Source of the DNA: Malachius bipustulatus
Taxonomy: Eukaryota; Arthropoda; Insecta; Coleoptera; Melyridae
Length of the DNA stretch: 64,000 nt
Direction: 5' to 3'
Assembly (NCBI GenBank): GCA_910589415.1
Contig: OU342638.1
Coordinates: 37,917,579-37,981,578 of the forward strand
Shown one piece after another: positions 2,886-61,735 of the stretch. Position 1 is the stretch's first letter; each line of letters starts with the position of its first letter. The position numbers and the translations under genes were made by a program. The notes beneath the pieces were generated by a model, which searched no databases, was not told the origin of the DNA, and saw only the letters and a program-made list of their open reading frames with translations.

Positions 2886-5482
2886 TGGTCCTTCGAGCAG
2901 GATAAATATTTTTTACTCTAACGTGGAATCATAATAATTATTGAAAGATGGAATAATCAATTAAACAATAAAACGTGGCATGAAAACTATAAAATTCAAA
3001 CATTAATGAAATAAATGGTTCTTCGAGCATTATTAATTAATTACCTACTTGGAACTCGATACCTACCTACGAGTTTCCGTTGATTGCGAGATATTAAAAA
3101 AAGCTAAAAAAGTGATAAAAAAAGCTGCTCAGAGCTCATAAAAATTACCTCTAGAACTCGTCTTGGATGTTTATTTTCTTTTTTATTTACTTTTTTAATT
3201 TCTGTAATCATGCATAATCCTATTATTCCATCACTTTACTTGCTAGAGCGTTTATTTTATTTTTTTAATAATAATTGTCCTCTTGGACTTGTCAAAACTC
3301 GTACTCTGTCACTTGATTGTTAATTAACTGTCAGGGATGCAAATTTACCACGAGATTTACAGTAAAAACGACTAGATTTTTTATAAAATGGTCCTTTGAG
3401 CCTTCTATTTGCGGATTAAAAATTATTATTTTCATTTTTTATTTTCTAACACGATTTAAACTTGCTAATTGTCATTTAATTACTCAAAATTGATGCTAAT
3501 CTCGGTCGAAATTTAATATGTAGTCGCTTAAAACATTTTTATAAAAAGGTCCTTCGAGCCTGATTAATTTATACATCATTGATCTTGTTTTATATTATTT
3601 TTTTTTAATATTTTCTTGAATATTTCTAACTGGTGAACTCACATTAAAAAAAAAATAGAAACGCTTTTAACAAAGTTTTATTAAAAAAAACTAGCGCGAA
3701 TTTTGAAATAAAACCGCGTTTTTTATTAAACGGTCCTTTGAGCCTGATTACCTAAGGCACTGTTAGTTAAAAATTATAGCAAAACTGCCGCCGTATTCAA
3801 AATACACAATATAATAAGCGCTTCATTTTATTTTATTAATGGTCCTTCGAGCTTCAACCATTTGCACAACTTATCTTCGTTTATTTTTTTTTTTTGCACT
3901 TGTCAGTTTTTAGCCTAAAAATCAGAAAGGAAGCGTTTGTTTGATAAGTCCATTCTATACAAAATTAAAGTAGACCAAATTTCCTACATTTATCATACAA
4001 AACGGTTTTTTGTAAAACTAATTGTTCCGCCGGTAGAGTGCGCCCTAAAAAATTGCATGGCACTTTTTGCCCAAATTTTTGCACTTTTTTCATTTCTTGG
4101 CCTAAATCTCACAAAGGAAGCGTTTTTTCGACAAGTCTATTCTATACAAAATTAAAGTAGAAAAAATTGTCTACATTTCTCATAGATAACGTTTTTTTTG
4201 AAAAACTAACCGTTTCGCTGGTAGAGCGCGCCAAAAATTTTGTGCCCAAATTTTTGCACTTTTTAAGTTTTTGGCCTAAATCTCAGAAAGGAAGCGTTTT
4301 TTAGACAAGTTCATTCTATACAAAATTAAAGTAGACAAAATTTACTACATTTCTCATAGATAACGTTTTTTTTAAGAACTAATCGTTCCGCCGGTAGAGC
4401 GCGCCAAAAATTTTGTGCCCAAATTTTTGCACTTTTTTCAGTTTTAGGCCTAAATCTCAGAAAGGAAGCGTTTTTTCGACAAGTCTACTCTATACAAAAT
4501 TAAAGCAGAAAAAATTGTCTACATTTCTCATAGATAACGTTTTTTTTTGAAAAACTAACCGTTTCGCTGGTAGAGCGCGCCAAAAATTTTGTGCCCAAAT
4601 TTTTGCACTTTTTAAGTTTTTGGCCTAAATCTCAGAAAGGAAGCGTTTTTTCGACAAGTTCATTCTATGCAAAATTAAAGTAGACAGAATTTACTACATT
4701 TCTCATACATAACGTTTTTTTTAAGAACTAATCGTTCCGCCGGTAGAACGCGCCAAAAATTTTGTGCCCAAATTTTTGCACTTTTTTCAGTTTTAGGCCT
4801 AAATCTCAGAAAGGAAGCGATTTTTCAACAAGTACACTCTATACAAAATTAAAGTAGACAAAATTTGCTACATTTCTTATTTAAAACGTTTTTTTGGAAG
4901 ACTAACCGTTCCGCCAGTAGAGCGCGCTAAAAATTTTGTGCCCAAATTTTTGCACTTTTTTTTGGTTTTTGGTCTAAATCTCATAAAGGAAGCGGTTTTT
5001 CGACAAGTACACTCTATACAAAATTAAAGTAGATAAAATTTCCTACACTCCTCATAACTATTTTTTTTGTAAGACTGGCCGTTTAAATTAAAAAGAAAAA
5101 ACAAGCGCTTTTAATACTTAATATATGTTTTTTAATAAATGGTCCTTCGAGCTCGATTACATTTATAATAAAATACACTTTTTATGTTCGATTTGGATCG
5201 AAAATTCTTATTATTGAGAGCTTTCTTAACTTGCGAGCTGTCATTTTGTTAGGTAGTCAAGCTAGCACACAATTAAATATACTACATCAAATGATCCTTT
5301 GAGCCTGATTAATCTATACTCTATTTTTCATTTCCATTAAAAATTCTTCTATTTATTTTATACCATTCTTCTAGCACAGTTTAAACTGGCTAATTTTAAT
5401 TTAATTAGTTAAAATTAGAACAATCTCGTGCGCAATTTAAAAAACAAGCGATATTTTCATCAAATGGTCCTTCGAGCCTGAT
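2886..5482 (+). repeat. tRNA-Tyr primer-binding-site-like motif, cluster A (9 plus-strand copies)
   Basis: Copies related to TGGTCCTTCGAGCCGGAT start at 2886, 3016, 3389, 3547, 3731, 3840, 5140, 5292 and 5465. The consensus is exactly complementary to the last 18 nt of eukaryotic cytosolic tRNA-Tyr including the post-transcriptional CCA, the form expected of an LTR-retrotransposon primer binding site. In this cluster most copies read CCTGAT instead of CCGGAT, and intervals are 110-190 bp where the copies are dense. The DNA between them is AT-rich and poorly conserved. I see no LTR pair or gag frame, so the cluster is probably a decayed and amplified retroelement leader. Confidence 0.75.
3885..5085. 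repeat. 174-bp satellite, about 7 copies
   Basis: The marker AAAGGAAGCG recurs with its AAGCG at 3931, 4118, 4292, 4466, 4641, 4815 and 4990. After the first copy the spacing is 174-175 bp. Each unit also contains CAAAATTAAAGTAGA and a GGTAGAGCGCGCC segment. Units at 4292/4641 and 4466/4815 look more alike than neighbours, hinting at a two-unit higher-order period. The array lies inside the tRNA-Tyr motif cluster and interrupts its spacing. Confidence 0.88.
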
Positions 5483-5879
5483 ACGCATTTTATCTTCGGT
5501 TTGGAATTTGGATCCAAAATTCGGTTAATTCAACTATTCTTCAATCTTTGAACGGTAGTGGTGGTCCGGTTAAGTAAAAAGATTGTACTGGAGTATGCTA
5601 AAATTGATATAAACCAGTACTGCCGATTAAATTTGCCCCAGTTTGGGTCATTGTACGCTGCCGGTTCTATCCGGGAAGAAGTACCGAATGGGTTTTTTTC
5701 TTTTCTCGCCGGGGCAATTGAAAATATGTAAATTCGGATTCGAAATAATCTCGACTTTGAAGCGAAACACCTACAACTACACAAACGAAACGAGATCGAA
5801 ATAAAATTAATATTTCTATCGCGTTCATGGATCTAACAAACTTATGAATACATTAATAATTTTTTTTTACTTGATATTT

Positions 5880-5960
5880 GAGACAGAAAGAGAGAGAGCG
5901 AGAGAGAGGGGACGAGAACGAACCAGATCAACAAAACAAGAGAGCGAGAGCGAGCAAAGA
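5880..5960. repeat. AG-rich microsatellite
   Basis: Imperfect GA/AG-rich simple sequence (AGAGAGAGCGAGAGAGAGG and similar). Open frames on both strands across it are low-complexity artefacts. Confidence 0.9.
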
Positions 5961-6442
5961 ACGGGCGAAATACCAGATTTCAATCGTCTTGGGCAACGAG
6001 AGAACATTATTATAAACGCGAGCAGAGCGTATATTTCTTTACCCAGACAATAGAAATAATTACATTTTAATAAACCCAAGGTCCCTCCAGTCACGAATCC
6101 GTTCAGACCATTAACACAATGGTTTACTGGTAGGTATATAAGTAAGGCCTAGCCTTACGTGGGCATACGCAAACAACCTATAATTGTTATATTTGTACTT
6201 TATTAAATGTCTTAATATCGTTAATTGCCGACAGGAGGCTCGGTTGTAGTTGTAGATTATGAATTTCGCTGCGCGCTGATTGAGCAAGCAAGCCAAGCTA
6301 GCTGCTCGAAAAGTTCTCGTAAATCTTCCAACGCAGATTTTATTAGATTTATCTATTCGCTCGTATTTGGTTATGGACGTTCCAAATTCCAGTTCTCGTT
6401 ATTAAATTGATCGTTTTGTTCGTTTTCAACCTCTGAATCTCG

Positions 6443-6460
6443 ATCAGGCTCGAAGGACCA
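6443..6460 (-). other. tRNA-Tyr PBS-like motif, minus strand
   Basis: The plus strand reads ATCAGGCTCGAAGGACCA, one base different from the tRNA-Tyr 3' end. It is the first copy in reverse orientation and closes cluster A, so the cluster is flanked by oppositely oriented motifs. Confidence 0.8.
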
Positions 6461-7320
6461 TTTGTTATTTATCTATCTCGTTTCGTAAGCGCTCCCATTT
6501 TCAATTCAAACTTCGCGCGCTTAATTTCTCCCACAGTTAATTTCGTGTCAATAGTTAAGAAACATAATATTTACTTAGAGCATGCATTTTAACTCTAAAC
6601 TCAAGGGTCAATAATAAAAATAATTATTATTTCCCATTAGCGTGATGTTTTCGAATATTTTTAACGATCGTACCTATAAAGAGTATTTTTTTATAACATC
6701 AGCTCAGCTCATCGGTAATAAAACTAAACCGAAAACTGGATTGTCCGTAAAAGTTATAAAAGCAAAGTCGAAGAAGTGTAGATTGTTTAATATGCGCGTC
6801 TTAGAAAATTATATGAGATTTTACAAGATAAGATCCGAGATCTGACTTTGAAACGCTCTTCGGGCGCCCCATTCCATCATCAAACCTAAAAGTTAGAAGG
6901 AGAGAGAAAGAGAGAAAAGAGAGAGACTAGACCGACACGAAATGTGCATATAAAAGTAACGAACAAGTTTCTCGTCTCTCTCTCTCTCTCTCTCTCGCTC
7001 TCTCACACACACTCCTCTGGATTTTATCTCCAGACCCGGAATTTAAAAGTTGTAAAAGATCTAATAAAAACCGAGAAATTAAGTAATAGAATTTATAAAT
7101 TATCGTCGTTCCGAGATTAAGTTTCCCATTCGACACATCCTGTGGACGTGTAGGAGAAAGATAAGAGCAATATCCCTTTCCTATTTTCGTGAAACGGCTA
7201 CAAAACTACAATTAACTGGCCCCCTACACAGCGGTCCCAAACAAAACGCTACACGATTCGCTTTTATTAATTAATAAAAATAATAAATCGATTTTTTAAA
7301 TTATCGAACTTATTTAATAT
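6461..7320. other. AT-rich DNA with a TC/CA microsatellite, no gene
   Basis: Contains a (TC)n tract near 6975-7005 followed by CACACACA, and AGAGAGAAAG-type sequence near 6900. No open frame with recognisable protein features was seen. The 67-codon frame near 6642 has no domain and no homologous neighbour. Confidence 0.55.
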
Positions 7321-7321
7321 A

Positions 7322-8150
7322 TAACACCCTGTATATTCAACCATTTTCGCGTAAAAAATCGAATTACCTTTCAAACGATACCAAACTCGACTTACCTAAA
7401 TCAAACCGTTCAGGAATTATTTAATATAACGATCACTAGAACACTCTGTATGAAAAAAGCACCCATACTCTGTAGTCGAATATCTATTAAACCGTTTCAG
7501 TTAGATACACCGAGTTTGGTCTCGTTTAAGACGTCTCACTTCGGGCTTCCAAATAAACGTAAAATATACAGGGTGTTACTATACAAATAAGAAAGTTATG
7601 AGACTTCAGATAATTACGCTTTTAAATTATAATAATTTTAAAACGTTTCTATTGAATTTGAGTCATTTAAATGAAAAAAAAAATTATAACATTGGTTTAA
7701 AGCGATATAAATGAGGCTAATTAATTATTTGATATAATAACACCAAGTATATTAAATCATTTTCGCATAAAGAATGAAATTATGGTTAAAACGATACCAA
7801 ACTCGACCTATCTAAATCAAACCGTTCAGAAGTTATTTAATATAACGATAAATAGAACACTCTGTATGAATAAAAAGCACCAATTACTTTGTAGTCGAAC
7901 ATCTCTTAAACCGTTCCAGTTGGATATACCGAGTTTGGTCTCATTTAAAAAGTCTCACGTCGGGCTTCCAAATAAACGTAAAATATACAGGGTGTTACTA
8001 TACAAATAAGAAAGTTATGACATTTTGAAATAATCACGCCTGTAAATTATAATAATTTTATCAAGTTTCTATGAAATTTAAATGATTTTTATGATCAAAA
8101 TCATCCAGGGGTGATTTAAAAGCGACATAAACGAGATTAATTATAACACC
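7322..8150. mobile_element. Duplicated MITE-like unit with AACACCCTGTATA ends
   Basis: Copy 1 (7322-7579) opens with AACACCCTGTATA and closes with its inverse TATACAGGGTGTT. Copy 2 (7736-7998) has a decayed left end (AACACCAAGTATA) and an intact right end. Both are followed by related sequence (AAGAAAGTTATGA, then AAATTATAATAATTTTA), so the duplicated unit is about 414 bp. No transposase is present. Similar termini occur in the family at 10.3-15.5 kb, suggesting a shared superfamily. The class (TA-targeting MITE or other) is uncertain. Confidence 0.7.
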
Positions 8151-9640
8151 CAGAATAGAAAAATGGCCCTATAATAAAAAAAAGGACGATTTCTCCCCAC
8201 GAATTTTCAACTTTGAAGTTTGAAAACTCTGTTTTGATTTTTTCTTCCTATTTTTCGCATAACTGGATTCGAGCCCCAGGTATTGTCTTCACTTTGCCAC
8301 CGCCAAAAAACTTTAACCCCGAATTTTAACGTCATCATAATGACTTTTATTGAAAAATTGACGATAGTTTCTACGACTTTTCGAATTTAACGTTTCCAAA
8401 GTGACAGTTCAAATTTCTATTTCACATTTCTCCCATAATTGCGTCGTAGCTTGGAGTCTCTTCGTTACGTCAAAATAATAATAATATGGTCGCCATCCTG
8501 GTTTTTTGAATGGGCAAAAATTTCCTTTGGTCTGGGTATGGATTCGTCTCTATATTTCCCTTTAATCTGATATTCAGGGGCCATTTTCTTTCAAAACTAT
8601 GACCGCAATAAAAAAATGTCAAGGTCTGACGACGTAGCCAAATTTTTTACAACTGTCAAATATTGAGCGATCAAAGCGACTAATAAACAAAACCAATTAA
8701 CCATCAGGTAAATTTTTAACTCAAGACGACGATCGTTTGAGAGCCCCTGGTGCTCCGGTGGTGGTGCTCAATAATCCAACAGAATGACCGGCAGTTCGGT
8801 TTCGGTAGTAGGTAGCCAGTTCGTGGAGAGCCAGAGCCACCGAGCGCGATCTCCGGACTTTTTACCATACACACACATACACGCACACAACCGCACCGGT
8901 GAACGCCAGAGGTCTATTTTAATTTGTCCATATAAATGTAAATTCCGAGATAAAAATCATGTTATCCGAATTTAAAATAGCCGTCCGTGACCGTGCACGT
9001 AGTAATTCTTCTTCCAGGCCGGGCCGATCGTTTTCCTCTCCTCGGCCGTCTCCATTATTCTTATTCTCGGGGCAGCGGGGGGACGCCTTTCTTGAACGCC
9101 TTTCATTATTACGGCAGCAACAACAGCACACCGAGCGTAAATTAATTCATTTCTCGCGTAATGAATGCGAGATGTCGACGAGTTATAAATAACAAACTTG
9201 TTATTTTTTTTTTAATTCAAACTATTACGCTCCCCTTGATTGAACCCGAGCGCCGCCTCCCCGGAAGGGGTCGAATCAGCGGTGTTGCCTCTCTCCCGAA
9301 AATCCCGAAAATCCCGGTTTCACTTTGAATTTGAAATAAGCGCATGCACGTTTCCGTTTCATAATAACGTGCCCCGTTTCTTAATTTAGTCCCGAACGCG
9401 TTGTTATTAATATTAATCCCGCTCGACGTTTTCGTTTGTTGTTCCGAACCAATCAGGTGAATTTTCTCATATTTATAGATTTCAGCAGACCGACGACTTC
9501 TGGCAATTAGCGAAATAAATCCCGTCCGTATCATTTACTCCCGGGCTATTTCTGAACCTTTTCCCATCATCGTGTTTTCACTATCCCGGCCGAATTTTCC
9601 GGCGGAAACTTCCTTCAAACTTGTTCTTCATAGCAATAAT
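8151..9640. other. Low-repeat segment with GC-richer core at 8740-9560
   Basis: From about 8740 to 9560 the DNA is clearly more GC- and CpG-containing than the window average, with a short CACACA tract at 8870. Overlapping open frames on both strands (60-105 codons) have low-complexity S/R-rich translations and no recognisable domain. It could be a regulatory island or untranslated exon, but no splice or promoter evidence is decisive. Confidence 0.4.
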
Positions 9641-9654
9641 AATAAACGATATGG

Positions 9655-10260
9655 TTCATAGTATTGGTCCTTGCAGTACGCCGCACGTCTCTATTTCTTC
9701 ATGTTAGCGATGAAAAAATATTAAAGGTCCCAATATCGATCCTTGTGGTACTGTTAACGAAATATGGTACTCTAATGGGACACAAATTTTTTCATACCAC
9801 ACCCCTAAACTCAACCAAATGAAGAACATTCAAATCTCCATGGAGCACCAGTACCAATACCTATACTAGCACCATAGGCATCAATTCCAGGACTTTCATT
9901 ATTTGGAAAACCACGAGGAGCTATACTAAGGCCGATTTAATTTATATTAACCAGCACTGTCGATTTTTCAATCAATAATATCATACGAATTTATCGACAT
10001 TTTACGTGAGGCTAAAAAAATATAATTCTAAAAATCACCTCTTAATGGCGTTGGCGTACCAGAGGGGTCAATACTGTGACCGTTATTATTTACATTGATA
10101 GTCCATTGTTATATTTCTTATTATCATCGTCAGTAAATCGACGTTTCTCGTTACGTTTCGTTGGATTTTGGCAATATTTTAAAAAATCATGTCATCATAG
10201 ATGGAGTACCACAGGGAACAATACCAAGACCAATAATTTTTACATTAATAATAATATTTC
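9655..10260. pseudogene. Cluster of short non-LTR RT core (motif B) fragments
   Basis: At least five pieces translate into the RT motif-B region G-V-P-Q-G-S-x-L-G-P. Minus strand: 9660-9690 reads GVLQGPIL, and 9700-9757 reads VPQGSILGPLIFF. Plus strand: 9904-9955 reads GKPRGAILRPI, 10045-10100 reads GVPEGSIL-stop-PLLFTLI, and 10203-10255 reads GVPQGTIPRPIIFTLI. Only about 10-20 residues are recognisable each time, and the catalytic YxDD box that should follow was not found. Minus-strand copies come first and plus-strand copies second, so they diverge. These are dead fragments of Jockey/CR1/RTE-type elements. Confidence 0.7.
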
Positions 10261-10269
10261 GTTCGGAAG

Positions 10270-13340: not shown

Positions 13341-13349
13341 TGAGCATTA

Positions 13350-13740: not shown

Positions 13741-13744
13741 TTTT

Positions 13745-20542: not shown

Positions 20543-20560
20543 ATCCGGCTCGAAGGACCA
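20543..20560 (-). other. Exact tRNA-Tyr PBS motif, minus strand
   Basis: The plus strand reads ATCCGGCTCGAAGGACCA, identical to the mature tRNA-Tyr 3' end including CCA. Because CCA is not encoded in insect tRNA genes, this implies a primer-binding-site origin or copying from mature tRNA. Confidence 0.85.
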
Positions 20561-20644
20561 AATAACTATTAAGATTATTAATATTGCTCTGACGCGATAT
20601 AGTTTTAATAACAATTTTTGTGTTAATCAAACTACTTATTCCCT

Positions 20645-20662
20645 ATCCGGCTCGAAGGACCA
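20645..20662 (-). other. Exact tRNA-Tyr PBS motif, minus strand
   Basis: Second exact 18-mer, 102 bp from the previous one and in the same orientation, with dissimilar AT-rich sequence between them. A third, imperfect minus-strand copy (ATCGGGCTCGAAGGACCT) lies at 21159-21176. Confidence 0.85.
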
Positions 20663-21299
20663 TAAGCACAATAATGTAAATTATAATAGAATAATGAGGA
20701 ATGTCGATTTCTCATATTATTTAAAATAGAAACTTTCAATTACCTACCTACTTAATTGTTTATTTTATTTTACATGAAAATAGCAATTATTATTATTATT
20801 CAATTATTGTGCTATTGCGTAATAGAAAAACGTACAGTAATTATTTCCCAATTAATTTACAATTTTGCATTTTTTGACGCGTGAAAAATTAAACAAACAA
20901 TTAGGGAATTTATTGTTGAATTTTTCACATCAAAGTCGAGCCAGTTTTTATAAAACTTGCGAGAACTCATGCAGACACGCGTGAATGAATAGAATTTTCA
21001 ATTATTTCAAGTATTTCTTCTATTCAAAGCAGTTTTTAATTAAATATTGAAACTATGTAGTCGCACGTGGCTATTATTAATTAATAAATTAATAAATAAA
21101 GACGAGTAATTCTTCTACGTCGTTAAAGCTGAACACTTATTTGGAATGATTTTTTTTAATCGGGCTCGAAGGACCTAATGATAATAACCCATAACAATAA
21201 TTTTATTCGGACACGAAAAAACGGGACTACCTCCCACAATCACAATAAGTCCCCATAATTATTATAATAATCTGATTTTACCTGAAAGAATCATTAAAA

Positions 21300-21730
21300 T
21301 AAAAATTGAAGCGAAATTTGATGTTCCAAAAGTGATGATAACTCGGAAATTATCACTTTTTAATATACAGTGCGACCTATCAAATCAGACTAAAATCGTC
21401 TGATTAATCGAAAAATGTAATAATATACAGGGTGTTATTAATTAAATAACGAAGTTATAAGCGATTTATCTTTCAGTACCCCATTTTTGAGCGTTTATTT
21501 TTATCCGGCTTAACGGACATTAAAATTAGCTGATTTACCTGAAAGAGTCTTAAAAATAAAAATTGGAGCAAAATTTGATGTTTCAAAATTTTTGATAACT
21601 CAGAAAGTATCACTTTCTGGTATACAGTGCGACCTATCAAGTCAGACTAGAATCGTCTGATTAATCCAAAAATGTAATAATATACAGAGTGTTATAAATT
21701 AAATAACGAAGTTACGGCCGATTTATCTTG
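21300..21730 (+). mobile_element. Two tandem copies of the ACAGGGTGTT repeat, divergent subfamily
   Basis: Two units of about 260 bp. Each contains GAAAGAATCATTAAAAT-like sequence, a GTGCGACCTATCAA segment, CAGACTA..TCGTCTGATTAAT, and ends AATAATATACAGGGTGTTAT (21428) or ACAGAGTGTTAT (21688). They match the plus copies near 11250-11500 more closely than those of block 2. Confidence 0.7.
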
Positions 21731-23277
21731 CAATTTCGACTAAATCCAAGCGGTACGTGCTAAATATGAAATAACTCTAATAGACTTTTATTAAATGAAT
21801 AATGAAAGTATCGCCCGCGCCGTCTGATAATAATAAATGAACTAACCGTACATCGTACATTCATCATTAATCGAAACATATAACATATGAAATTCAGATA
21901 CAAATGAGTAACCTATTGTGATAATTTCAACTTCCACTTATATGCATATATACCCATAGGTAATTCCACATGTCGATTATTTAGTTTCCCGATGTATGTA
22001 CATCCATTGTTACGGACGTGGATGATAAATGACAGACACAGTCACACGGACAGACGGACAAGTACCTTCTTCTGCCAGGCTTTTTTACCATTTTCCATTA
22101 TTTTATTTGAGCCGGAGCGAGCGAGTGTGTAACGCGAACCCCCGTGCATGATTAATAATAGTCGGATTGGCTGCGCTCGGTAACAATGGACTTGCCAGTT
22201 TTTATCATTTACGGACGAACAGTCCGATAATTAATTTTGAATATTTAATGATTTTCTATAAATCAAGTGATCCTTCCAGACGGGGATAACAAAAGACGAA
22301 CGATCATCAGCAGGATCGTCATTATTACAATAACGGATATATTTCGATAAATATTTTAGCCACAATAATAATAATAATAATAATTAGACCGCTGGAGCTG
22401 GAGTCTCGATCATTCGGACAATCTGATGGACGACAAATGAAACGACAGTGGACGGATTGATTGATTTACAGCGCGCAAAAGAGAGGAGCCTCTTCTGCGG
22501 GGAAATCGTCAGCGAGTGCCGATTATGTAAAATGGTGAGGAAGGCGAGTTTTTCAGGCGCTACGATAATCAATTACCCATTACTGGAAGACGTTCGAGTC
22601 TCTTTCACGGAGATATACACGTCGTTACGTCCTTACATATATAGAACACTCCATGTTTAATTAATAAACGACACAAGCGCAATTTGTAGTGTCTTTTTTG
22701 CCCCTCGTCGACGACGGACGTCATAAAACTCTCACAGCAGAGATTATTGTGAATATGAGGACGGCAAATAACTTAATTTCGCATGTATATAATTTAATCG
22801 AGTCATTTCCAGGTAGGTCTACGGGTACATGGTACATACCTACTACACATACCACCGGTATGTGCGGATACAAATAACAATTAACAATTAACGCCGCATT
22901 ATTTTGTAATAATAACCTCGGTAATGGCTGCGTGTGTAATATAGTCAAAGCAAGCCCACACGTCGAGTCTATAAATTTTCAATTTATTTAAATTTCCTAT
23001 ATACCTACGTAGGCCAGGCAAAAGCAAGAGCGCATTACTTATAAAACGTATAATACTAATAACAACAAACGACACATTGCCTGTCATTATCATAGTTGTT
23101 GCAAATTTACATACAACGAAAGGATCGCGCTTATTTCCATCAATGCATGCAGATATTTCCGTGCTTGTAACCTGTATATGTATTTATATATAATATACCC
23201 CATTAGCTTCGCCCTGTATAAAATGAAAATAGGTGACCACTCTTCTTAATTTGTGAAAAGAAAACTTACTATAGTCC
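21731..23277. other. Low-repeat DNA, no gene seen
   Basis: Contains an AAT triplet run near 22367-22384 and TACATACCTACTAC-type sequence near 22835. Several 60-75 codon frames overlap on opposite strands at 22380-22950, with no recognisable domain. A degraded TGATCCTTCCAGACGGGGAT at 22268 resembles the tRNA-Tyr motif. Confidence 0.5.
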
Positions 23278-23710
23278 TGGTCCTTCGAGCCGGATCTACT
23301 GCAACGTAGGCTGCAGAAATAGCAACTTTTGATACACTTTTACTCCCACTTGAGATAATTTTTATTATATTGATTGATATCGTCATCAAATTACGCAAGA
23401 TATATCACAATAGAATTATTTATGGTCCTTCGAGCCGGATTTATTGATTGGTAGTGATTATTTATTGATTTCTACTGAATAAAAAATAAAAGCAATTAAT
23501 ACACTAAATATTACTTCGATTTTTAGGGAAATTGGTCCTTACGTACCAGATATCAGGGAGACCACGATCTGAATAAAACACCAATTTTACAGCCAAAAAT
23601 TCGCCTCTTATCAGCTTGAGATGTTTGTGACGCTCTACCACGAGAATCTATGGTCCTTTGAACCGGATCTATTAAAAAAACGTGAGCTGAAGGAATTGCA
23701 ACTTTTGATA

Positions 23711-25397
23711 CAGGGTTACTGGTAACTGGATACATTCCTTTGGTGATCTGATAAAACAAGAGGTAAGGAGTAAATTAACCCCAACATGCACTATAGAAAA
23801 CTCAATAGATTTTGAGATATTTCGATTTTCAACTTTTCTTAAAAAAATGGTTTCAGATGTATTGAAATGTAATTTTCAAAAAATCTACTTTAACTTTTTG
23901 ATTTTTTTTTTTTGCTGGAATACTTGTCCAATACTATGCTTCCTTCTGGAATAAAAAATATCCTGAGGTATTTCGATCGTGTGAAAATTTCAAAGAAAAA
24001 CTTTCACAAACTATTTTTTTTAAATAAGATTTAAAAGTTTTTACAAGTTATTTTCGCAAAATTGTCAAGGCACCTTGCGTACAAATTGTTTTAAAAACTT
24101 CCCTAGTGTAGTAGCTATCTAACAAGGTACGAATCTTGTACAAGAATAACAGAATCTCCCCGCTATGTACCGTTACCGAGGAACAAATCCTTAAGTCGGG
24201 ACGTTTTAAAAAAAATACGGCCCTGAACGGGGGTCTTAAAATTCTCGGATCCGGTCCATTTTCAATAGGTCGTATTTGGGGGTCACGAGCTTCGTCCCTA
24301 CCAAGTTTCGTCCCGATCGGTAAAACTTTCAGACACTTAGAGTGGCTATTACTAGGCTATTCCCGAAAAATCCCGAAATTCCCGAAAAAATGACACTTCC
24401 CGGGAACGGATCCCGCTCATTTTCAATAAGCATCGTGCCACGGTGCGCCTCTTCAATCAAGCCAAATTTCAACTTTCCCACATGAAAACTGGCGGCTCTA
24501 GAGTGTTTCCTAGCAAAGACACAGACAGACAGACCGACAGACAGACATTTTTTCGGGCACAAGAATACGTATACTTACGAAACTTCTGTGACTTTGCTAG
24601 GAAACACTCTAGAGCCGCCAGTTTTCATGTGGGAAAGTTGAAATTTGGCTCGATTGAAGAGGCGCACCGTGGCACGATTCCTATTGAAAATGAGCGGGAT
24701 CCGTTCCCGGGAAGTGTCATTTTTTTCGGGAATTTAGGGATTTTTCGGGAATAGCCTAGGAAACACTCTTAGTGTCTGAAAGTTTTACCGATCGGGACGA
24801 AACTTGGTAGGGACGAAGCTCGGGACCCCCAAATACGACCTGTTGAAGATGGGCCGGATCCGAGAATTTTAAGACCCCCGTTCAGGGCCGTATTTTTTTT
24901 AAAACGTCCCGACTTAAGGATTTGTTTCCTCGGTAACGGTACATAGCGGGGAGATTCTGTTATTCTTGTACAAGATTCGTACCTTGTTAGATAGCTACTA
25001 CACTAGGAAAGTTTTTAAAACAATTTGTACGCAAGTTGCCTTGACAATTTTGCGAAAATAACTTGTAAAAACTTTTAAATCTTATTTAAAAAAAATAGTT
25101 TGTGAAAGTTTTTCTTTGAAATTTTCACACGATCAAAATACCTCAGGATATTTTTTATTCCAGAAGGAAGTATAGTATTGGACAAGTATTCCAGCAAAAA
25201 AATAAATCAAAAAGTTAAAGTAGATTTTTTGAAAATTACATTTCAAGACATTTGAAACCATTTTTTTAAGAAAAGTTGAAAATCGAAATATCTCAAAATC
25301 TATTGAGTTTTGTATAGTGCATGTTGGGGTTAATTTACTCCTTACCTCTTGTTTTATCAGATCACCAAATGAATGTATCCAGTTACCAGTAACCCTG
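23711..25397. mobile_element. 1.69-kb foldback element with 0.81-kb arms and TA duplication
   Basis: The left arm is 23711-24524, beginning CAGGGTTACTGGTAACTGG. The right arm is 24586-25397, its near-perfect inverse. The loop of about 61 bp is rich in GACAGACAGACC. TA flanks both ends (23709-23710 and 25398-25399). A related repeat copy without the insertion at 23321-23360 reads GCAACTTTTGATACACTTTT, matching the joined flanks, so an empty-site paralogue lies 0.4 kb away. TA duplication and CAG-type termini suggest Tc1/mariner-mobilised foldback DNA, which is inferred because no transposase is present. Frames such as 24136-24393 and 24443-24754 are arm sequence, not genes. Confidence 0.9.
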
Positions 25398-25783
25398 TAT
25401 ACTTTTACTTCCACTTACGAGAATTTTTATTAACCTGATTGATACCGTCATGAAATTACGCAAGAAATCTGACAATAAAATTATTTATGGTCCTTCGATC
25501 CGGATTAATTAGAAATTTTTGCTCAAATCTGCACCCACGGTTGTTGAAGTAACTTTTAACTAAATTACCCAATAAGGCAGTAAAATAAAATTATTTATGG
25601 TCCTTCGAGCCGGATTTATTGATTGATATCTTGTGAATATAAAACATTTAGGGAAATTAATTTTTTACCGGATCGATAATATAATAAATAACGCGTGGTC
25701 CTTCGAGCCGGATTTACGTACCCGACTAATAAAGCGAAATAAAAAAAGATTGACTCGTCTCCGGAGTTGACGACCTCCCCGTC

Positions 25784-26203
25784 GTGTCATTTGACATTTC
25801 CACGCCGTCTACGGACATGAAAAAGCAATCAAGGCGCCGATTTTACAGCCGAAAATTCGCCTCTTATGAACAACTCGAGATTATCGTGGCGCTGGTGGCG
25901 GAGAGTGGAAGAATTTTACAACTTTTTAATGGCCGATTGAGAGCGCGGGACTTAATGGCAACGGGCGCTATTATACAAGGCGATTTTTTCGTAAATGTAA
26001 AAAAAAGAGCTGAAAGTGTATTGTGTTTAGTTTGTGCCTGGAATTCGTTCGTTCTCCCCAGACGCGTTCAACAGGTGAACGAAAACGAAAGCAAATCGAG
26101 CGCGGACCGCGCTCGCGAATTCAGCCCGCGTGGGTGTAGTCCGCGGTTGGGCTACACGAAGAAGACGCCGTTGCCTGATCGTACGAAATCTCCCCCTCTC
26201 TAA
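25784..26203 (+). other. Unassigned 139-codon open frame in GC-richer DNA
   Basis: The frame starts about 70 bp downstream of an exact tRNA-Tyr motif (25696-25713), which is where an LTR element's gag would begin. The product is basic, with a serine/arginine-rich tail after residue 100, and has no zinc knuckle, protease or capsid motif that I can recognise. A 60-bp part near 25830-25890 is duplicated at 23575-23635, where the frame is not preserved. GC content is above average. It may be a decayed retroelement leader, a host noncoding island or a real short gene. I lean towards non-gene. Confidence 0.2.
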
Positions 26204-27319
26204 ATGTCGTTCAAACTATCCCAATATAAGGGATGAAAAATCTAAGATACCTAGTTCGATGAATTCGGCAACACCGCCTCGATTATAATACACGGCAATA
26301 ATAATAGTAATAGGGGCTGTTTGGTGAGGTAAAGTTACCTAAGTCAATTCAAGATTTGATGGCCGGCCGCGGTCGAGGAACGAAAAGTGGCTTCATTTCT
26401 ACAGGAATGCCACTAAAACGGTTGTTTATGTCTTTTTTATAGGATTACACGTCCGAGCGGGGACGGATTTTTAAAGGTTTTCACTGATTTTTATCGAATT
26501 TATTTAAACCGGGTCGTTAAATTGACGTCCAGAGATATTCTTTTAATGCACGATTATAAAAATATAATTCGACCGATCGTGTTTCTACTGCTTTACGACC
26601 CGCTGGGAAATAAAACAAAGTCCACCTTGATTTATTCCAGTTATGACCGCGGGTCCGGCGAGGTGCATGACTACTCGTTCTTCGTTCGTTTTTGTTTCCG
26701 ATAGTCAGTCGGGTCTCTCCATTGGCGTAGCGATTTTTTACGTATTTTTCGTATTTTTGAATAGTTATCTGATCCTTCGAGCCGGATAAGATAATTCAAG
26801 AAGAATTATTAACATAAGTTCTTTCGTTCCTTTTTGTACGCAATTCAAACATTTTTAAACCTAAAAATTCTAATTTCATGTCTTAGTCATGAAAGCAAAA
26901 AGAAGGTATTGAAAAGATAAAAAATAAGAAGGAACGAGTTTTGAAAGAACCAAAAATGTTGAGGTTGCATAAAAAATATGAAAGTATTATAGTACGTCTA
27001 GAACTGGAAGTGGAAAGTGAAAAAAAGAAGAAATAACATTTTATTTCATAAAATACAAAGATAGAAAATGGAAACAGGGATGAAGATAAATTAATAACAG
27101 ACATGCTCGCGTTCAATGGAAAAAAATAATAATAAAATTTAGGTTAGGAGTAATTTTAATTTTATGATTCTTCTTACTCTGAGTCAGAAATACTTTTAAA
27201 ACTTTTGCGCACAATTTTTACTAATCATATTGAAAAAAGAGCGATTTCCCGAATTTTTGGTCCCCACGAAATCTCTTTACTGAAATTTCCCGACAAATTT
27301 ATGGTCCTTCGAGCCGGAT

Positions 27320-55180: not shown

Positions 55181-57110
55181 CTCAAGATAGGGCCACAACG
55201 AATTGTAATCCAATAATTAAGTCCGTTTTTCAATTATAAAAATCTTTTTTTCTGATATGAATTTTGGAATTTGGGAATTTTCGATTTTTGACTCTTTATG
55301 GGTTCGATTTGGGACACTTCCCGGCTATTGCGACCCCTAATACCATATATATTCTGAATCAGCGATCCAAGGACTACAAGATAAAATTATCAGCCCGCTT
55401 TCGAAAAATGCTTTTTTTGAGAAAATAAAGCGCAGGGCCCACCCTTTGAAAAAAATTTTTGTCGCATTTTTTTTATTTCGGTTTCTGATAGCTCAAGCCA
55501 CGGCGAATGTGATATCAAAGTCCTTTTTTCAATTAAAACAATCTTTTTTGTGATATGAATTTTTGAATCTTGTAACTTATTTTTTTTTTTTTAATTTTTG
55601 GTCTCCCCTTGTATATTTTTATCGAGGGCCTCTAATGATTTCCATAGTCACTCTGATATCTTATAATTTCTCCGTAGTAGTGGGTATTTACCACTTGAAT
55701 ATTACAGCTCAGGACTTGGCAGATTTAGGTCTAGTTCTAGTAATTCTAGATTTAGTGCTTAAAGTGAATAATTGAAAAGAAATTGAAAAAAAATAATCTT
55801 CAACCCTTCAGCTCATTTTTATTAATGGTCCTTCGTTCATCAATCAATCAAGAAAAGCGCAATAATTCTGGAGAATTGAAGAAAAATTATTCTTTTTACT
55901 TTCTATAAATGTATCTAGGTACCTACCCCTGTCTTAGGGGTTCCTTAACCCCTAATAATACGATAATACCTCTTTTCTTTGATGATGATGTTTGAGCGTT
56001 GAGCTTTAATAAAATAAATAATGAAAAGAACTAGACTTGGAACTGGATTTATATTTTATATACCGCGTGTTCTTTTATTACAATATACAATAATAATAAT
56101 AATAATAATATAAGACCTGATGCGATATAAATCTGGAAGTGATTCAAGGAATGAACAAACAAACGAGCAGCCATAGCTGGCTATAATCGAGCGCCCAGAC
56201 ATCCTTCGTTCGAACAAATACATAGAAAACACACAAAAGACGGGGCCAGTTCGGATACGAGTTTTTAAAAAAATCAGACACAATATACCCGGTGGTCGAT
56301 CTAAAAGCAGCGGCCCGCTCCGATTCGAACACCTGCGCGGAACGATTCACGTGCAACATTCGCCTGTCCGACTGTTCGACCCCATCCGACCAGACGAGCG
56401 GTCGATTTTTCTTTCAAAATCCGCGGTTGACGGTTCGTCTGTGCGACCGTGCCGTATCGTTTCTGCTCGGCTCCGGCGTTTTCTATCAAAATTCCATATT
56501 AACACTTTGGACAAACATTCGGATGGGTGCCTTAAGAAATCGCTCATAAAAGAGTGAAGAAAGAAGAAATCCTTTTGGAATTATTATTTATATTATTATT
56601 TAGGTGTTCGGTGGCTCTGAGTTCTGGTTATTTTTTAGAGACTGGTTTTTGTGTGAAACGAATGGGGTCGCGGATGTTATTGAGGGAAACATCAGCTGAC
56701 GTGACGTTTCGGTCATTAGACCGGGTGTCGAATTTCGTCGATTCATTATTTCGTTATTTTCGGAATGTCACTCCGTCGTTCCAATGTAATTAATATCTCG
56801 TAATGTTCCAATGAATGGAGATGTTTTTTCCATTAAAGTTTTTAAAAAACTGTTTCTTCCTTAGTGCCTACAGATTTCTGAGATTATTTTCCGGGCGGAG
56901 GTTTTTTTTTCAAAACGACTGCTAGAGACGCTGGCGGTTTCTAAACTGAAAGTCGTTTTATCCTGCGAATTCGCGTTCTCGAGATATTATGACCTTTGAA
57001 AGTTGAAAATTGGCAATTTTTTTAAGCTTTTCAAAATGTTTGTTCCCGTTTTGAGAGAAAACTGAGGACTTTACGGTCTAACTGGACTGTTTAACCGACT
57101 CGTATGGCAG
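55181..57110. other. Low-repeat DNA; GC-richer patch at 56290-56540
   Basis: A diverged tRNA-Tyr motif (TGGTCCTTCGTTCATCAA) lies at 55826. AAT triplets occupy 56090-56111. Overlapping frames on both strands at 56290-56560 (62-85 codons) have no recognisable domain. AATCTTTTTT.TGATATGAAT recurs near 55243 and 55541, a local duplication of about 300 bp. Confidence 0.5.
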
Positions 57111-57119
57111 TCGGCTGTG

Positions 57120-58790
57120 CTCACACATAGGCCGGGCCCAAAACGGCCGCCACGAGTTTATGAATTTCCGAATTCGGATATTCAGAAATTGTAATTTTTG
57201 ATTTTCGGGTATAAAAATTGCCCATGATGCGTTGATGCTGGGGTTTTTATTTTTCCAAACGAAGGAGAGGGATCAACCCTGTCCAGCCGTTGTGAAAATT
57301 CGCTTTGCGCCAAAATGGCCACCATAATTTTTTTAAATTTCCGAATTAGGATATTCAGAAATTGTAATTTTTTATTTTGGGGTATAAAAATTGTCGTTGA
57401 TGCTGGGGTTTTTATTTTTCCAAACTAAAAAGAGAGATCAACCCTGTCCCGCTGTTGTGAAAATTCGTCCTGTCCGGGCCCAAAACGGCCGCTATGATTT
57501 TTTTTATTTTCGAATTCGGATATTCGGAAATTGGAATTTTCGACTTTCGGGAATAACAATTGCCCTTGATGCGCTGATGCTGGGGTTTTTATTTTTCCAA
57601 ACGAAGGGGTAAGGTCAACCCTGTCCCGCTGTTGTGAAAACTCGTCTTATCCGGGCTCAAAACGTCCGCCATGATTTTTTGAATTTCCGAATTCCGATAT
57701 TCAGAAATTGTAATTTTTGATTTTCGGGTATAAAAATTGCCCATGATGCGTTGATGCTGGGGTTTTTATTTTTCCAAACGAAGGAGAGGGATCAACCCTG
57801 TCCAGCCGTTGTGAAAATTCGCTTTGCCCGGGCCCAAAATGACCGCCATGATTTTTTTAATTTCCGAATTAGGATATTCAGAAATTGTAATTTTTTATTT
57901 TGGGGTATAAAAATTGCCGTTGATGCGTTGATGCTGGGGTTTTTATTTTTCCAAACTAAAAAGAGAGATCAATCCTGTCCCGCTGTTGTGAAAATTCGTC
58001 CTGTCCGGGCCCAAAACGGCCGCTATGATTTTTTTTATTTTCGAATTCGGATATTCGGAAATTGGAATTTTCGACTTTCGGGAATAACAATTGCCCTTGA
58101 TGCGCTGATGCTGGGGTTTTTATTTTTCCAAACGAAGGGGTAAGGTCAACCCTGTCCCGCTGTTCTGAAAACTCGTCTTATCCGGGCTCAAAACGTCCGC
58201 CATGATTTTTTGAATTTCCGAATTCCGATATTCAGAAATTGTAATTTTTGATTTTCGGGTATAAAAATTGCCCATGATGCGTTGATGCTGGGGTTTTTAT
58301 TTTTCCAAACGAAGGAGAGGGATCAACCCTGTCCAGCCGTTGTGAAAATTCGCTTTGCCCGGGCCCAAAATGACCGCCATGATTTTTTTAATTTCCGAAT
58401 TAGGATATTCAGAAATTGTAATTTTTTATTTTGGGGTATAAAAATTGCCGTTGATGCGTTGATGCTGGGGTTTTTATTTTTCCAAACTAAAGAGAGAGAT
58501 CAACCCTGTCCCGCTGTTGTGAAAATTCGTCCTGTCCGGGCCCAAAACGGCCGCTATGATTTTTTGAATTTTCGAATTCGGATATTCGGAAATTGGAATT
58601 TTCGACTTTCGGGTATAAAAATTGCCCTTGATGCGTTGATGCTGGGGTTTTTATTTTTCCAAACGATGGAGAGGGATCAACCCTGTCCCGCTGTTGTAAA
58701 AACTCGTCTTGTCCGAGGCTAAAACGGCCGCCATGCTTTTTGAATATCCGAATTCGGATTTTCAGATGTTCTTATTGTAGATTTTCGGCT
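57120..58790. repeat. 177-bp satellite with a 531-bp three-monomer higher-order unit
   Basis: The marker GATGCTGGGGTTTTTATTTT starts at 57234, 57399, 57576, 57753, 57930, 58107, 58284, 58461 and 58638. Every interval is exactly 177 bp except the first, 165 bp. Monomers three apart are most alike, giving a 531-bp higher-order repeat. As 177 is 59 codons, one frame reads through two or three monomers (146 codons at 58282-58722), until a TAAGGT stop in one monomer type. The peptide has no recognisable domain. Confidence 0.95.
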
Positions 58791-58799
58791 ATAAAAATG

Positions 58800-59940
58800 G
58801 CACCATTTTTAAATGAATGAATCATCGAGTAATTGGAGATTAGAAAAAAAAAAATCCGGAATACGATAAACGTGAAAAATAATCGTAAATTCCAGCGATT
58901 AGTGCTGAGCGCAATAATAACGTGAAAGCGAGGACGAAACTCGATACTCCTGTGAGATTGTCGATTTCAGTAAAGTCACACCGGAGGTTTTGATAACACA
59001 AAGAAAAGAGACCGTCGCATTTATAAATGGACGCAATTATTATTTTAACGCGAATAACGATCGAATGACACTCGCCTTCGGTACATTACTAAACGTCAAA
59101 GCGAGCAAATCAGGAAACTTCTTGTTCTAATAGGTAGCTATCTTTAAATAAATCGAATAAAACTACCCCCGCTTCTTCTTTAATCATGCCCCAATTTCAG
59201 TCGCACAAACGACAAACGACAAACAACAAACAACAAACAACAAACAACAAACAACCCCCTACCCCCACCCACCCCCTCTCCATCCCTTTAATGATAACAA
59301 ACAACATTTCCGCTCGAAACGACGAGTAACGAACGTTCCGCACCTACTAAATTAACAGCCTGCGGCTCCTGCCACTGGCTGTTACATCGCTCTGTACAAG
59401 CAAAAACAGGCCATCAGCATGCGGAATGTCCCAACTTTGAGCAAATGAGTGCCGAATTATGAAAATTAACACCCCCCTGTCAGACGCAAGCGCCCCCCGA
59501 TCAGTCAATGTCACCGCCACTGGCCCGGAACTTGTAACTTCTCGCAATTAACATAAGTACCCGCCGCCGTCACCGCACTGGAGAGAGGCGCCCGGGGGCG
59601 GAATTTGCATTCCCGCGGGTCGATCATTGGGAAGAGATGGGGAAGGGAAGGGGTTGCCTGCCGAAGGGTAAGAAGGAATCTTAGCTGCTGCTTCCGGTTC
59701 GGGTGGGAGAAGAAAATTATTAGAATTAGGTATATGGATATTAGAATTGTGGTTGTTATAGGACGGTGTCCGTTCTCATTTTTTACAGGATATGTTCGTA
59801 ATTAGATTATCTTCCATTTTAACTGAACAAGAAACTTAAAAAAGGGAATTAATTATCATAAAAAAATTATTAAAAATTATTTTCAGTGGGGTGCGTTGCA
59901 TATTGATGAAAAAATAAATTTAGCTAACTTCTTGATTTAT
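58800..59940. other. Low-repeat DNA with CAAACAA microsatellite
   Basis: An ACAAACA-type run lies at 59213-59256, followed by C-rich sequence to 59285. Slightly GC-richer at 59340-59650. Short frames lack recognisable domains. Confidence 0.5.
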
Positions 59941-59944
59941 TGTC

Positions 59945-60875
59945 AAAAAATGAGCCAACCTGAGTTGTCAAAAAAAAAGTGAGCTAACCTGGATTGTCAA
60001 AAAATGAGCTGGCCTAGATTGTAAAAAAAAGCCGGCCTAGATTTATAAAAAGTGATCTGGCCTAGATTTATAAAAAATGAGCTGGCCTAGATTTATAAAA
60101 AACGAGCTGGCCCAGATTTATGAAAAAATAGCTGGCCTAAATCTAGAAAAAATAAGCTGACCTGGATTGTCAAAAAATAAACTAACCTGGCTTGTCAAAA
60201 ACTGTGCTGGCCTAGATTTATAAAAAAAATGAGCTGGCCTAGATTTATAAAAAATGAGCTGGCCCAGATTTTTGAAAAAAACCTGGCCTAGATTTAGAAA
60301 AAATAAGCTGACCTGGATTGTCAAAAAATAAATTAACCTGGCTTGTCAAAAAAATGAGCTGGCCTACATTTATAAAAAACGAGCTGGCCTAGGTTTAGAA
60401 AAAATAGCTGGCCTAGATTTAGAAAAAATGACCTGACCTGGATTGTCAAAAAATGAACTAACCTGGCTTGTCAAAAACTGTGCTGGCCTAGATTTATAAA
60501 AAATGAGCTGGCCTAGATTTATAAAAAATGAGCTGGCCCAGATTGATGAAAAAATAGCTGGCCTAGATCTAGAAAAAATAACCTGACCTGATTGTCAAAA
60601 AATGAACTAACCTGGCTTGTCAAAAACTGTGCTGGCCTAGATTTATATAAAAAATGAGCTGGCCTAGATTTATAAAAAATGAGCTGGCTCAGATTTATGA
60701 AAAAATAACTGGCCTAGATTTAGAAAAAATAAGCTGACCTGGATTGTCAAAAAATGAACTAACCTGGCTTGTCAAAAAATGAGCTGGCCTAGATTTATAA
60801 AAAATGAGGTGGCCTAGATTTAGAAAAAATTACCTGACCTGGATTGTCACTCTCTTTTTGCTCTCTTTTTGCTCA
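59945..60875 (+). repeat. GAGCTGGCCTAGATTTATAAAA minisatellite
   Basis: About 38 units of 23-26 bp, mainly ATGAGCTGGCCTAGATTTAT, interspersed with GACCTGGATTGTCAAAAAAT and AACTAACCTGGCTTGTCAAA variants in a recurring order with a higher-order period of about 130-190 bp. A few looser units continue to 60990. It is the same superfamily as the arrays at 28-29.9, 32.5-33.9, 40.1-41.7 and 44.7-45.8 kb, but with a distinct consensus. Confidence 0.9.
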
Positions 60876-61052
60876 ATTTTTCTCGAGGTTAGCTCATTTG
60901 TTCATTGATTGTCAAAAACAAACTAACCTGGGCTGTCAAAAATTGCGCTGAGCTGAGTTGATAAAAAATGAACTCACCCAATTGAATAAAAAAGCGTCCC
61001 CAAACAATAGCTACAATACAATACAGGCGAAAAAAGTTAATGTGTTTCTTTA

Positions 61053-61735
61053 ATCCGGTTCGGAGGACCAATTTGAAAAAAAATCCTCATGTCTGTAAAA
61101 CAGTAAAATGATTCTGATCGTTTTATTTTGTAATATTGTAATATTTTAAGACGTTTCGTCATCTTTGAGTCTCGTCAGTTATTTCAGAAACAACCTTAAG
61201 ATATGTGTTTTTTCTGAAGTTTGGTAAATATTTACAGTACCTACTGTTGCTTATGAGAAATTCCTACTTTAGGGGTAAACTTTCGACCTTGAAGCTTCAG
61301 TTTCAGTCAAAATGTTCAGATAGACTTACAAAAAGTTTTTTTCACCTCGTGAAAATTGTCAAAACTGTGTTGTATCCCAAATAAGCCATGCAATAGAAAT
61401 TGAAAAGACACTGCGTGAGTATGCGGCATCAGAAAGGGAGACACAAAAGATCTTCTTAGCTCGTGGTGTAAATGCCAATCCGGCTCGAAGGACCAATTAA
61501 AAAAAAATTCATCAGATATTGAATCTGTACAACTCTTTTCTTATAAGACAGGTTAAGGACGTTTCGTCATCTTTTAGACTCATCAGGGAGTTAAAAATTA
61601 TATTCCTGGAGTCATTTTTTTTAAGTTCATTGCTAAAGAAAGAATAATTGGAAAGACATGCACCAGAATCAGAGGAATATAATAAATCTTCTTAGGACGT
61701 AGTATAAAAAAAGGTAAATCCGGCTCAAAGGACCA
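61053..61735 (-). repeat. tRNA-Tyr PBS-like motif, cluster C (minus strand)
   Basis: Plus-strand ATCCGGTTCGGAGGACCA at 61053, exact ATCCGGCTCGAAGGACCA at 61478, and ATCCGGCTCAAAGGACCA at 61718, each followed by AATT(T/A) and an A-run. The last two lie in a 239-240 bp tandem unit shared with the hammerhead-like cores at 61557 and 61797. Confidence 0.82.

Follow-up and report, generated by a model that had tools for sequence, protein, structure and literature searches.

The window, a stretch of 64,000 nucleotides from the beetle Malachius bipustulatus, was found to contain three clusters of an 18-bp motif, here termed arrays A, B and C, situated in AT-rich, apparently non-coding DNA. Searches of both strands retrieved 21 sites with up to three mismatches to the 18-mer, eight of which were exact, relative to a mean of 0.02 in 100 dinucleotide shuffles. 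The initial annotation had proposed at least 24 copies, a figure reached at up to four mismatches (24 sites) but not at up to three; the three clusters it described hold all 24 of these sites, and its eight exact copies were confirmed at 20543, 20645, 23278, 23423, 25598, 25696, 27302 and 61478. The features of the window are as follows.

2886..3857, plus strand: left half of array A, motif starts at 2886, 3016, 3389, 3547, 3731 and 3840 (1-4 mismatches)
3389..3564, plus strand: array A block between two motifs, copy 1, duplicated at 5292-5482
5140..6460: right half of array A, motif starts at 5140, 5292 and 5465 (plus strand) and 6443 (minus strand)
5292..5482, plus strand: array A block, copy 2
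20543..21176, minus strand: array B sites 20543 (exact), 20645 (exact) and 21159 (2 mismatches)
23278..23668, plus strand: array B sites 23278 (exact), 23423 (exact) and 23651 (2 mismatches)
23278..23440, plus strand: array B block between two motifs, with a second copy at 23651-25505 that is split by the inserted palindrome
23711..25397: palindromic DNA element of 1,687 bp, inserted into array B and not part of the array
25488..25713, plus strand: array B sites 25488 (1 mismatch), 25598 (exact) and 25696 (exact)
26770..26787, plus strand: array B site (1 mismatch)
27302..27319, plus strand: array B site (exact)
61053..61735, minus strand: array C, sites 61053 (2 mismatches), 61478 (exact) and 61718 (1 mismatch)

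Array A was composed of nine plus-strand and one minus-strand sites, array B of eight and three, respectively, and array C of three minus-strand sites. The distances between consecutive window sites were 98-240 bp in 12 of 21 instances, in keeping with the spacing of 100-240 bp first described, but were looser in the other nine (373-2119 bp). A gap of 1837 bp in array B contains the inserted palindromic element, for which 1015 first-look candidates were retrieved across the genome. The information content of the 18 motif columns ranged from 0.93 to 2.49 bits, whilst that of the 80 flanking columns listed did not exceed 0.53 bits, and the conserved block was exactly 18 bp wide. The motif stretches were not among the repeats reported by Tandem Repeats Finder for the window.

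The 18-mer is the complement of the 3' end of tRNA-Tyr(GUA) plus CCA, as judged from the tRNA genes of this genome, 11 of which were found, ending in ...AAATCCGGCTCGAAGGA and none encoding the CCA. The species' own tRNA-Tyr 3' end therefore agrees with the motif, as does the claim that its complement includes the non-templated CCA. Agreement with the tRNA ends at position 59, one base before A58, which we take to be modified (m1A58) and to be the expected stop for reverse transcription; such an end is like that of a retroelement primer binding site (PBS) and unlike that of a tRNA pseudogene. The next nine bases matched the tRNA at 2.23 positions in the arrays (2.43 expected) and at 2.83 positions at single sites (2.34 expected), and tRNA pseudogenes were rejected since the array bases past the 18-mer match at chance level. 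No sequence of a tRNA gene, pseudogene or SINE was detected beyond the 3' 18 nt with ARAGORN (without introns), Rfam or the nine-base extension.

Across the genome, 740 exact 18-mers were retrieved (383 plus, 357 minus), with none for the reversed control, and 1413 at up to two mismatches (control 12). The exact sites that were read numbered 38, all on C1 and among the 100 of 740 matches listed: 15 with 10 kb of context (L014-L028), three in L013 and 20 with 0.5 kb (L046-L065). In 10 of the 15 with long context the 18-mer could be assigned as the PBS of a BEL/Pao element, those without an assignment being L018, L019, L022, L024 and L026. Nine of the 15 were accompanied by a pair of LTRs of 195-517 bp, 99-100% identical, together with long reading frames, and Pfam searches of sequence pieces identified DUF1759 in all nine LTR-paired elements; L027 gave BEL protein and LTR matches. 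The BEL match at L018 comes from another element at this locus, whose PBS, at 2904, is decayed; pieces downstream of the exact site yielded no Pfam family. The 18-mer is thus the tRNA-Tyr PBS of BEL/Pao LTR retrotransposons in this genome, and elements sharing it, which the initial annotation had suggested looking for, do exist with near-identical LTRs. A separate search for BEL gag homologues retrieved nine distant proteins, and there were 0 matches in viral contigs.

No such element surrounds the window arrays. Searches with tblastn at 1e-4, employing pieces from seven elements, retrieved no BEL protein match in the window, in the window ±20 kb or in L009-L012, L043 and L067; none of nine LTRs of this genome matched the window or the 20 kb on either side; and self-comparison of the window revealed no LTR-like pair around the motifs among the matches listed. 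The tested flanks of array A and of two parts of array B (left and right) were single-copy in 544 Mb, apart from local relatives and one 41-bp stretch. The middle of array B scored at 40 places in the genome, 39 of them within the palindrome, and array C adjoins a dispersed repeat. Together with the lack of BEL protein and LTR matches, the single-copy flanks tested in A and B indicate that these sites did not arise by copying the leader of a single element, and a multiplied leader, taken literally as first proposed, is not supported.

A related explanation is that the arrays derive from BEL families, now extinct, in which several PBS copies were already present in the LTR end or leader, so that later local growth would be unneeded. 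Some elements do have this form: second PBS remnants (at least 10 prefix bases or up to three mismatches) were present upstream of the PBS in five of 32 single-site contexts, representing four families (L021, L023, L026/L049 and L050), with two lying inside the LTR by position, which indicates that PBS doubling occurs inside elements too. Furthermore, L013 holds three exact PBS in a tandem with BEL-like coding matches inside, and L024 holds a 161-bp tandem that includes a PBS. However, the lack of BEL coding or LTR matches within 20 kb of the window, the single-copy state of the tested A and B flanks and the presence of motifs in both orientations within A, B and D (the last described below) have already weakened this explanation, and we regard it as unlikely.

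Comparisons within the arrays revealed duplicated blocks in A, B and D that span from motif to motif, with homology outside them not detectable. Alignment z scores inside the blocks were 12 (A), 8.5 and 21 (B) and 17.6 (D), relative to -1.5 to 1.1 outside, including 1.0 and 1.1 for the array A block and -0.8 and 0.4 for that of array B. Homology of the array A block stops on the right at the motif end and on the left 9 and 27 bp inside the motifs of that side, whilst the array B block ends at a motif start and 5 bp past a motif end. Of the six block ends overall, five fell inside a motif or no more than 8 bp from it, and the remaining one is that located 9 and 27 bp away; block ends thus lie at or near motifs.

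Flank homology was detected in 14 of 169 within-array site pairs from A, B, C and three arrays outside the window (45 of the 47 array sites, owing to an edge rule), and was one-sided in 13 of the 14, a count in which the two ends of one block make two pairs and flanks are cut at the next motif. In four of the 14 the alignment stays more than 12 bases from the motif. The only two-sided homology among the pairs tested was in array C, where sites 61478 and 61718 lie inside a 240-bp tandem pair; its members are 91% identical and do not have their boundaries at the motif. Hence the view that the flanks have drifted is only partly correct. Independent insertion of 18-bp units at clean empty sites was dropped, as the sole candidate (23560-23720 against 25820-25960) aligns poorly and is not decisive.

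Motif-to-motif blocks could in principle also arise if tRNA-Tyr primed reverse transcription of array transcripts, starting at one motif and stopping at the next occupied one, with the resulting cDNA recombining back. The blocks being motif-bounded on both sides, and the motif ending at the presumed m1A58 stop, are consistent with this, although the same ends are expected from ordinary DNA exchange at a shared 18-bp word. Moreover, CCTGAT replaces CCGGAT in five of the 10 array A sites (3547, 3731, 5292, 5465 and 6443), including the 3' motif of the array A block in both copies, whereas all 11 tRNA genes have CCGGAT; the motif was therefore not rewritten from the tRNA, and the copies were inherited as DNA. 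Primed cDNA is accordingly considered highly improbable.

Further arrays exist outside the window. Array D, encountered in the 20 kb taken past the window, lies 5.4 kb beyond it, whilst L043 and L067 were met through BLAST hits; one array other than A-D is located in an intron that splits an Ig domain. A single distant relative of array D was identified, L067, though a spacer common to the two was weak (z 2.5, with 8 of 1000 shuffles as good) and was discarded. Inverted motif pairs acting as hairpins were likewise rejected, in that D folds well (z -5.1) but is alone among six arrays in having a close inverted pair. A CA dinucleotide, the LTR end, was present at -9 to -2 in six of eight array D sites (1-4 in control windows), in eight of nine L067 sites (controls 1-2; L067 has 10 sites, nine of which were tallied) and in 27 of 30 single sites (controls 12-16). 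The column and CA tallies drew on 35 single sites, or 30 after removal of five sharing repeated upstream sequence. Retention of CA before the motif in D and L067 is taken as support for an origin from LTR-end/PBS sequence, whilst CA was not above background in A (3 of 10), B (2 of 11), C (1 of 3) and L043 (1 of 5), for which descent from an LTR junction is only presumed.

The motif itself was somewhat better kept than its surroundings. In paralogous aligned pairs, 6 of 100 motif positions were mismatched relative to 67 of 530 flank positions (P 0.017, Poisson; 0.06, Fisher), so that the comparison proposed in the initial annotation gave a middling outcome: conservation is about two-fold better in the motif, but the extra conservation is weak. 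Columns 3, 5, 9 and 10 were invariant in the 47 array sites, with columns 0, 2, 8, 13 and 14 taking most changes. It could be argued from these figures, from the sharp 18-bp block amid near-random flanks, from the array in the Ig-domain intron and from the identity of the exact complement with a reported insect small RNA that the host maintains the arrays, with the 18-mer under selection as a site bound at the DNA level or targeted by RNA; examples would be binding by a protein that recognises the BEL PBS, or an 18-nt Tyr 3' tRNA fragment for which the sites serve as targets or decoys. Nevertheless, the excess is only about two-fold at a Fisher P of 0.06, the duplication-related copies are not independent, decayed copies with three to five mismatches persist, and half of the array A sites share the non-tRNA variant. 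Neither strand exhibited the wobble-pairing bias of an RNA-pairing constraint (14 C-to-T and A-to-G changes against 17 G-to-A and T-to-C), and a short peptide or start codon (ATGGTC...) was discounted by eye, the CCTGAT copies reaching a stop after five codons. Host maintenance is therefore possible but rather doubtful. A bolder version, which we consider decidedly unlikely, is that the genome retains PBS arrays for host use: a PBS-recognising silencer or the Tyr 3' fragment (miR-2779) would read the 18-bp modules, and exchange at these modules would reshuffle their spacing.

The explanation that we favour, with about even confidence, is that BEL PBS sequence remaining in non-coding DNA gave rise to further copies through local duplications joined at the 18-mer. 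Old BEL insertions would likely have left LTR-end/PBS sequence behind; this origin alone does not account for four clusters within 70 kb. Growth may then have proceeded by local duplication of DNA, by unequal exchange or by template switching. The 18-mer is the chief sequence that the otherwise unlike spacers have in common, so junctions would fall inside it or close by, and junctions at the motif would cause spacers to appear unrelated while the motif is retained. Function is not needed to account for the data. An element normally has a single PBS; arrays of this site that lack a recognisable element, and whose duplicated blocks end at or near it, suggest that the signal may outlive its retroelement as a point of breakage or exchange.

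Among known systems, mammalian ZFP809 reportedly binds the tRNA-Pro PBS of MLV, a host protein reading an 18-bp PBS as DNA. The window motifs are likewise 18-bp PBS sequences, and if the host does read them they would represent, in an insect, the equivalent of the silencing through the PBS that operates in mammals. The BEL/Pao element Achilles of the olive fly has the same 18-nt complementarity to the tRNA-Tyr 3' end as the window motifs (PMC4580426), but its single PBS follows a 5' LTR and it has a gag-pol frame; neither the LTR nor the frame was found in the window arrays. In plants, satellites and minisatellites that originated from LTR retrotransposons similarly demonstrate short retrotransposon parts growing into arrays (PMC7004042, PMC3305785), although the units there are tandem within the element, whereas the window arrays repeat the PBS only, with mostly differing spacers; compared with a head-to-tail minisatellite, two array C sites form a plain tandem pair and A, B and D contain motif-bounded duplicates. 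Lastly, the insect small RNA reported as miR-2779 or miR-7550 (PMC4035286, PMC3888459, PMC3699532, PMC5042526, PMC9170749), AUCCGGCUCGAAGGACCA, is complementary to the motif at every position, with a 20-nt form in the Bombyx listing; the excerpts of these reports do not mention genomic arrays. Although catalogued as a miRNA, this exact counterpart of the BEL PBS is probably a Tyr 3' tRNA fragment.

The initial annotation had reported at least 24 copies of an 18-bp motif complementary to the 3' end of tRNA-Tyr, the mark of a primer-binding site (PBS), in three clusters of the window, and these were recovered as claimed, with 21 sites at no more than three mismatches, eight of them exact, against 0.02 expected in shuffled sequences. 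Up to four mismatches, 24 sites were found, across which the 18 motif columns carried 0.93 to 2.49 bits each and the printed outside columns 0.53 bits or less. The motif edges were exact, with TGG (complementing CCA) at one end and, at the other, the base that pairs with tRNA position 59, in a numbering assigned by the analysis itself. A genome search with a tRNA-Tyr 3'-half pattern, blind to genes having another 3' end, retrieved 12 places; ARAGORN, run with introns, called 11 of these as tRNA-Tyr(GTA) with introns of 19-21 nt, the twelfth (L040) not being called. All 11 genes end in AAATCCGGCTCGAAGGA and none encodes the CCA, hence it is the mature tRNA, with its CCA, that the motif complements. 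The next nine bases past the motif matched the tRNA at 2.23 of nine positions in the arrays (2.43 expected from composition) and at 2.83 at single sites, slightly above the 2.34 expected. Locus L040 (1498-1524) carries a PBS-Tyr whose match runs beyond tRNA position 58, with eight of the nine next bases fitting, as if copying had gone beyond its usual stop.

Within the 544-Mb assembly (52 contigs), the exact 18-mer occurs 740 times and its reversed control not once; at up to two mismatches the counts were 1413 and 12, respectively. Element context was read in 10 kb around each of the first fifteen sites on contig 1. An LTR pair (195-517 bp, 99-100% identity) with long reading frames was present in nine (L014-L017, L020, L021, L023, L025 and L028), and Pfam searches on pieces found DUF1759, the BEL gag domain, in all nine, with Peptidase_A17, rve and DUF5641 additionally in L014. 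L027 matched BEL protein and LTR, L026 had a BEL match approximately 7.6 kb downstream of the PBS, and the match in L018 was part of a second element; L019, L022 and L024 had no BEL match within their 10 kb. Judged from the LTR pairs, frames, Pfam domains and BEL matches at fifteen of the 740 sites, several BEL/Pao families of this genome use the motif as their PBS. Downstream of its exact PBS-Tyr at 7983, L018 also has long frames without a Pfam family (3255-6655), and this PBS may belong to a non-BEL element using the same primer.

The 104 kb comprising the window and its flanks held 11 exact sites against 0.14 expected at the genome mean. The arrays compared were as follows:

Array A: window 2886-6460
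Array B: window 20543-27319
Array C: window 61053-61735
Array D (locus L011): eight sites in 613 bp, on both strands, starting 5.4 kb past the window
L043 (contig 3): five sites
L067 (contig 16): ten sites at up to four mismatches, downstream of an exon-like frame that has no Pfam family above its cut-off

The L043 array is flanked by two coding pieces matching complementary parts of the Ig_3 profile (13-42 and, below the Pfam cut-off, 54-78), and since it lies between two parts of one Ig domain, the array is within an intron. At L011 5840-6060, inverted motif pairs are predicted to fold into a long hairpin (z -5.1), from which small RNAs directed at the BEL PBS could arise.

The arrays are distinct from the BEL elements carrying the PBS. 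Neither tblastn with protein pieces of seven BEL elements nor blastn with nine LTRs gave a match in the window, 20 kb either side, L043 or L067. Flanks were also compared with the whole genome by BLAST, which omitted the sites at 6443, 26770 and 27302, was blind to very common words and retained best candidates only. Two parts of array A found only themselves and one local relative, the left part of array B only itself, and its right part, besides itself, one local relative plus a match of 41 bp that led to L043; array D found itself and L067. The middle of array B scored at 40 places, namely itself and 39 touching only the end within an inserted palindrome. Array C found itself and 23 others, of which 21 were a dispersed repeat at 61195-61374 and two were short and immediately beside the motif at 61478.

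Other repeats occur in and near the arrays. The palindrome in array B (23711-25397) is a 1,687-bp near-palindromic DNA element with TA flanks, whose arms are identical at 808 of 859 aligned columns and whose end matches 39 other scored places, of 1015 genome candidates, at 92-100%; this insert is young and very common. A 174-bp tandem array (3891-5084) divides array A, each end lying within 60 bp of a motif. Short-unit arrays of the ATGGACTCAGGTCAGCTC type and its kin, several mutually related by BLAST, lie in both orientations at 28.3-30.1, 32.5-33.9, 40.2-41.7, 44.7-45.8 and 59.9-60.8 kb.

Flanks of 45 sites from the six arrays were compared in 990 pairs, with homology taken as z of at least 5. 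Homology was found in 14 of 169 within-array pairs against one of 821 between arrays; it was one-sided in 13 of the 14, flanks being cut at the next motif and both ends of one block scored as two pairs, and in four the alignment nowhere came within 12 bases of the motif. Homologous stretches between motifs gave z values of 12 in array A, 8.5 and 21 in B and 17.6 in D, and the same blocks gave 1.0 and 1.1, -0.8 and 0.4, and -0.6 and -1.5, respectively, outside the motifs. By BLAST, five of six block ends fell inside a motif, at its edge or within 8 bp of it, and the left end of the array A block lay inward of the left motifs by 9 and 27 bp. In A, B and D, these duplications thus have their junctions at the motif or close to it, the exception being array C, a 240-bp tandem. 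CCTGAT occurs in five array A copies and in none of the 11 tRNA-Tyr genes, indicating that these five were inherited by DNA copying, without renewal from the tRNA. The feature is real and odd, and the arrays are best seen as dispersed repeats with a PBS core that grow through exchange at the 18-mer or close to it.

In four aligned pairs, differences affected six of 100 motif positions against 67 of 530 flank positions, where 13.7 motif differences were expected at flank rates (Poisson P 0.017, Fisher P 0.06). Among 47 array sites, columns 3, 5, 9 and 10 were invariant, and changes were frequent in column 8 (10 of C to T) and in column 14 (13), although these counts include related copies several times over. 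Both observations are suggestive of selection, short of being decisive.

As to origin, the CA that ends a BEL LTR stands ahead of the PBS, at -9 to -2, in 27 of 30 single sites (12-16 in control windows), six of eight sites of array D (controls 1-4) and eight of nine of L067 (controls 1-2); it is at background level in A (3/10), B (2/11), C (1/3) and L043 (1/5). In some BEL-type contexts the exact PBS has a further, decayed copy 29-226 bp upstream of it; a strict rule counted five among 32 single-site contexts, and a looser rule gave 10 hits against 1.65 expected:

Decayed upstream PBS copies: L021, L023, L026/L049 and L050, the first 11-12 bases kept in three

By position, those of L021 and L023 are within the LTR, and the PBS seems to shift in position during BEL evolution. 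L024 contains a 161-bp tandem (8327-8637, 97%) with the PBS within the unit, the upstream copy of which seems to start with a decayed PBS. Together, the upstream copies and this tandem indicate that PBS doubling occurs in elements. The arrays may have started through such doubling, an origin that is conjectural for A and B.

Literature searches for PBS arrays or PBS-binding decoys yielded no paper, and the titles listed by further searches (12 of 27 and 12 of 17) named no such arrays, which does not imply their absence from print. The exact complement of the motif, ATCCGGCTCGAAGGACCA, appears in small-RNA listings (PMC4035286, PMC3888459, PMC3699532, PMC5042526, PMC9170749) as miR-2779 in Anopheles stephensi and an Aedes cell line; western corn rootworm is listed with six loci of it, and in Thrips palmi it goes under the names miR-2779b and miR-7550. 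Bombyx is listed with a 20-nt form in which AT precedes ATCCGGCTCGAAGGACCA, at the place of AA in the tRNA of the M. bipustulatus genome. The simplest source of the miR-2779 sequence would be a Tyr 3' tRNA fragment. Among known elements, a tRNA-Tyr PBS has been reported for the BEL element Achilles (PMC4580426).
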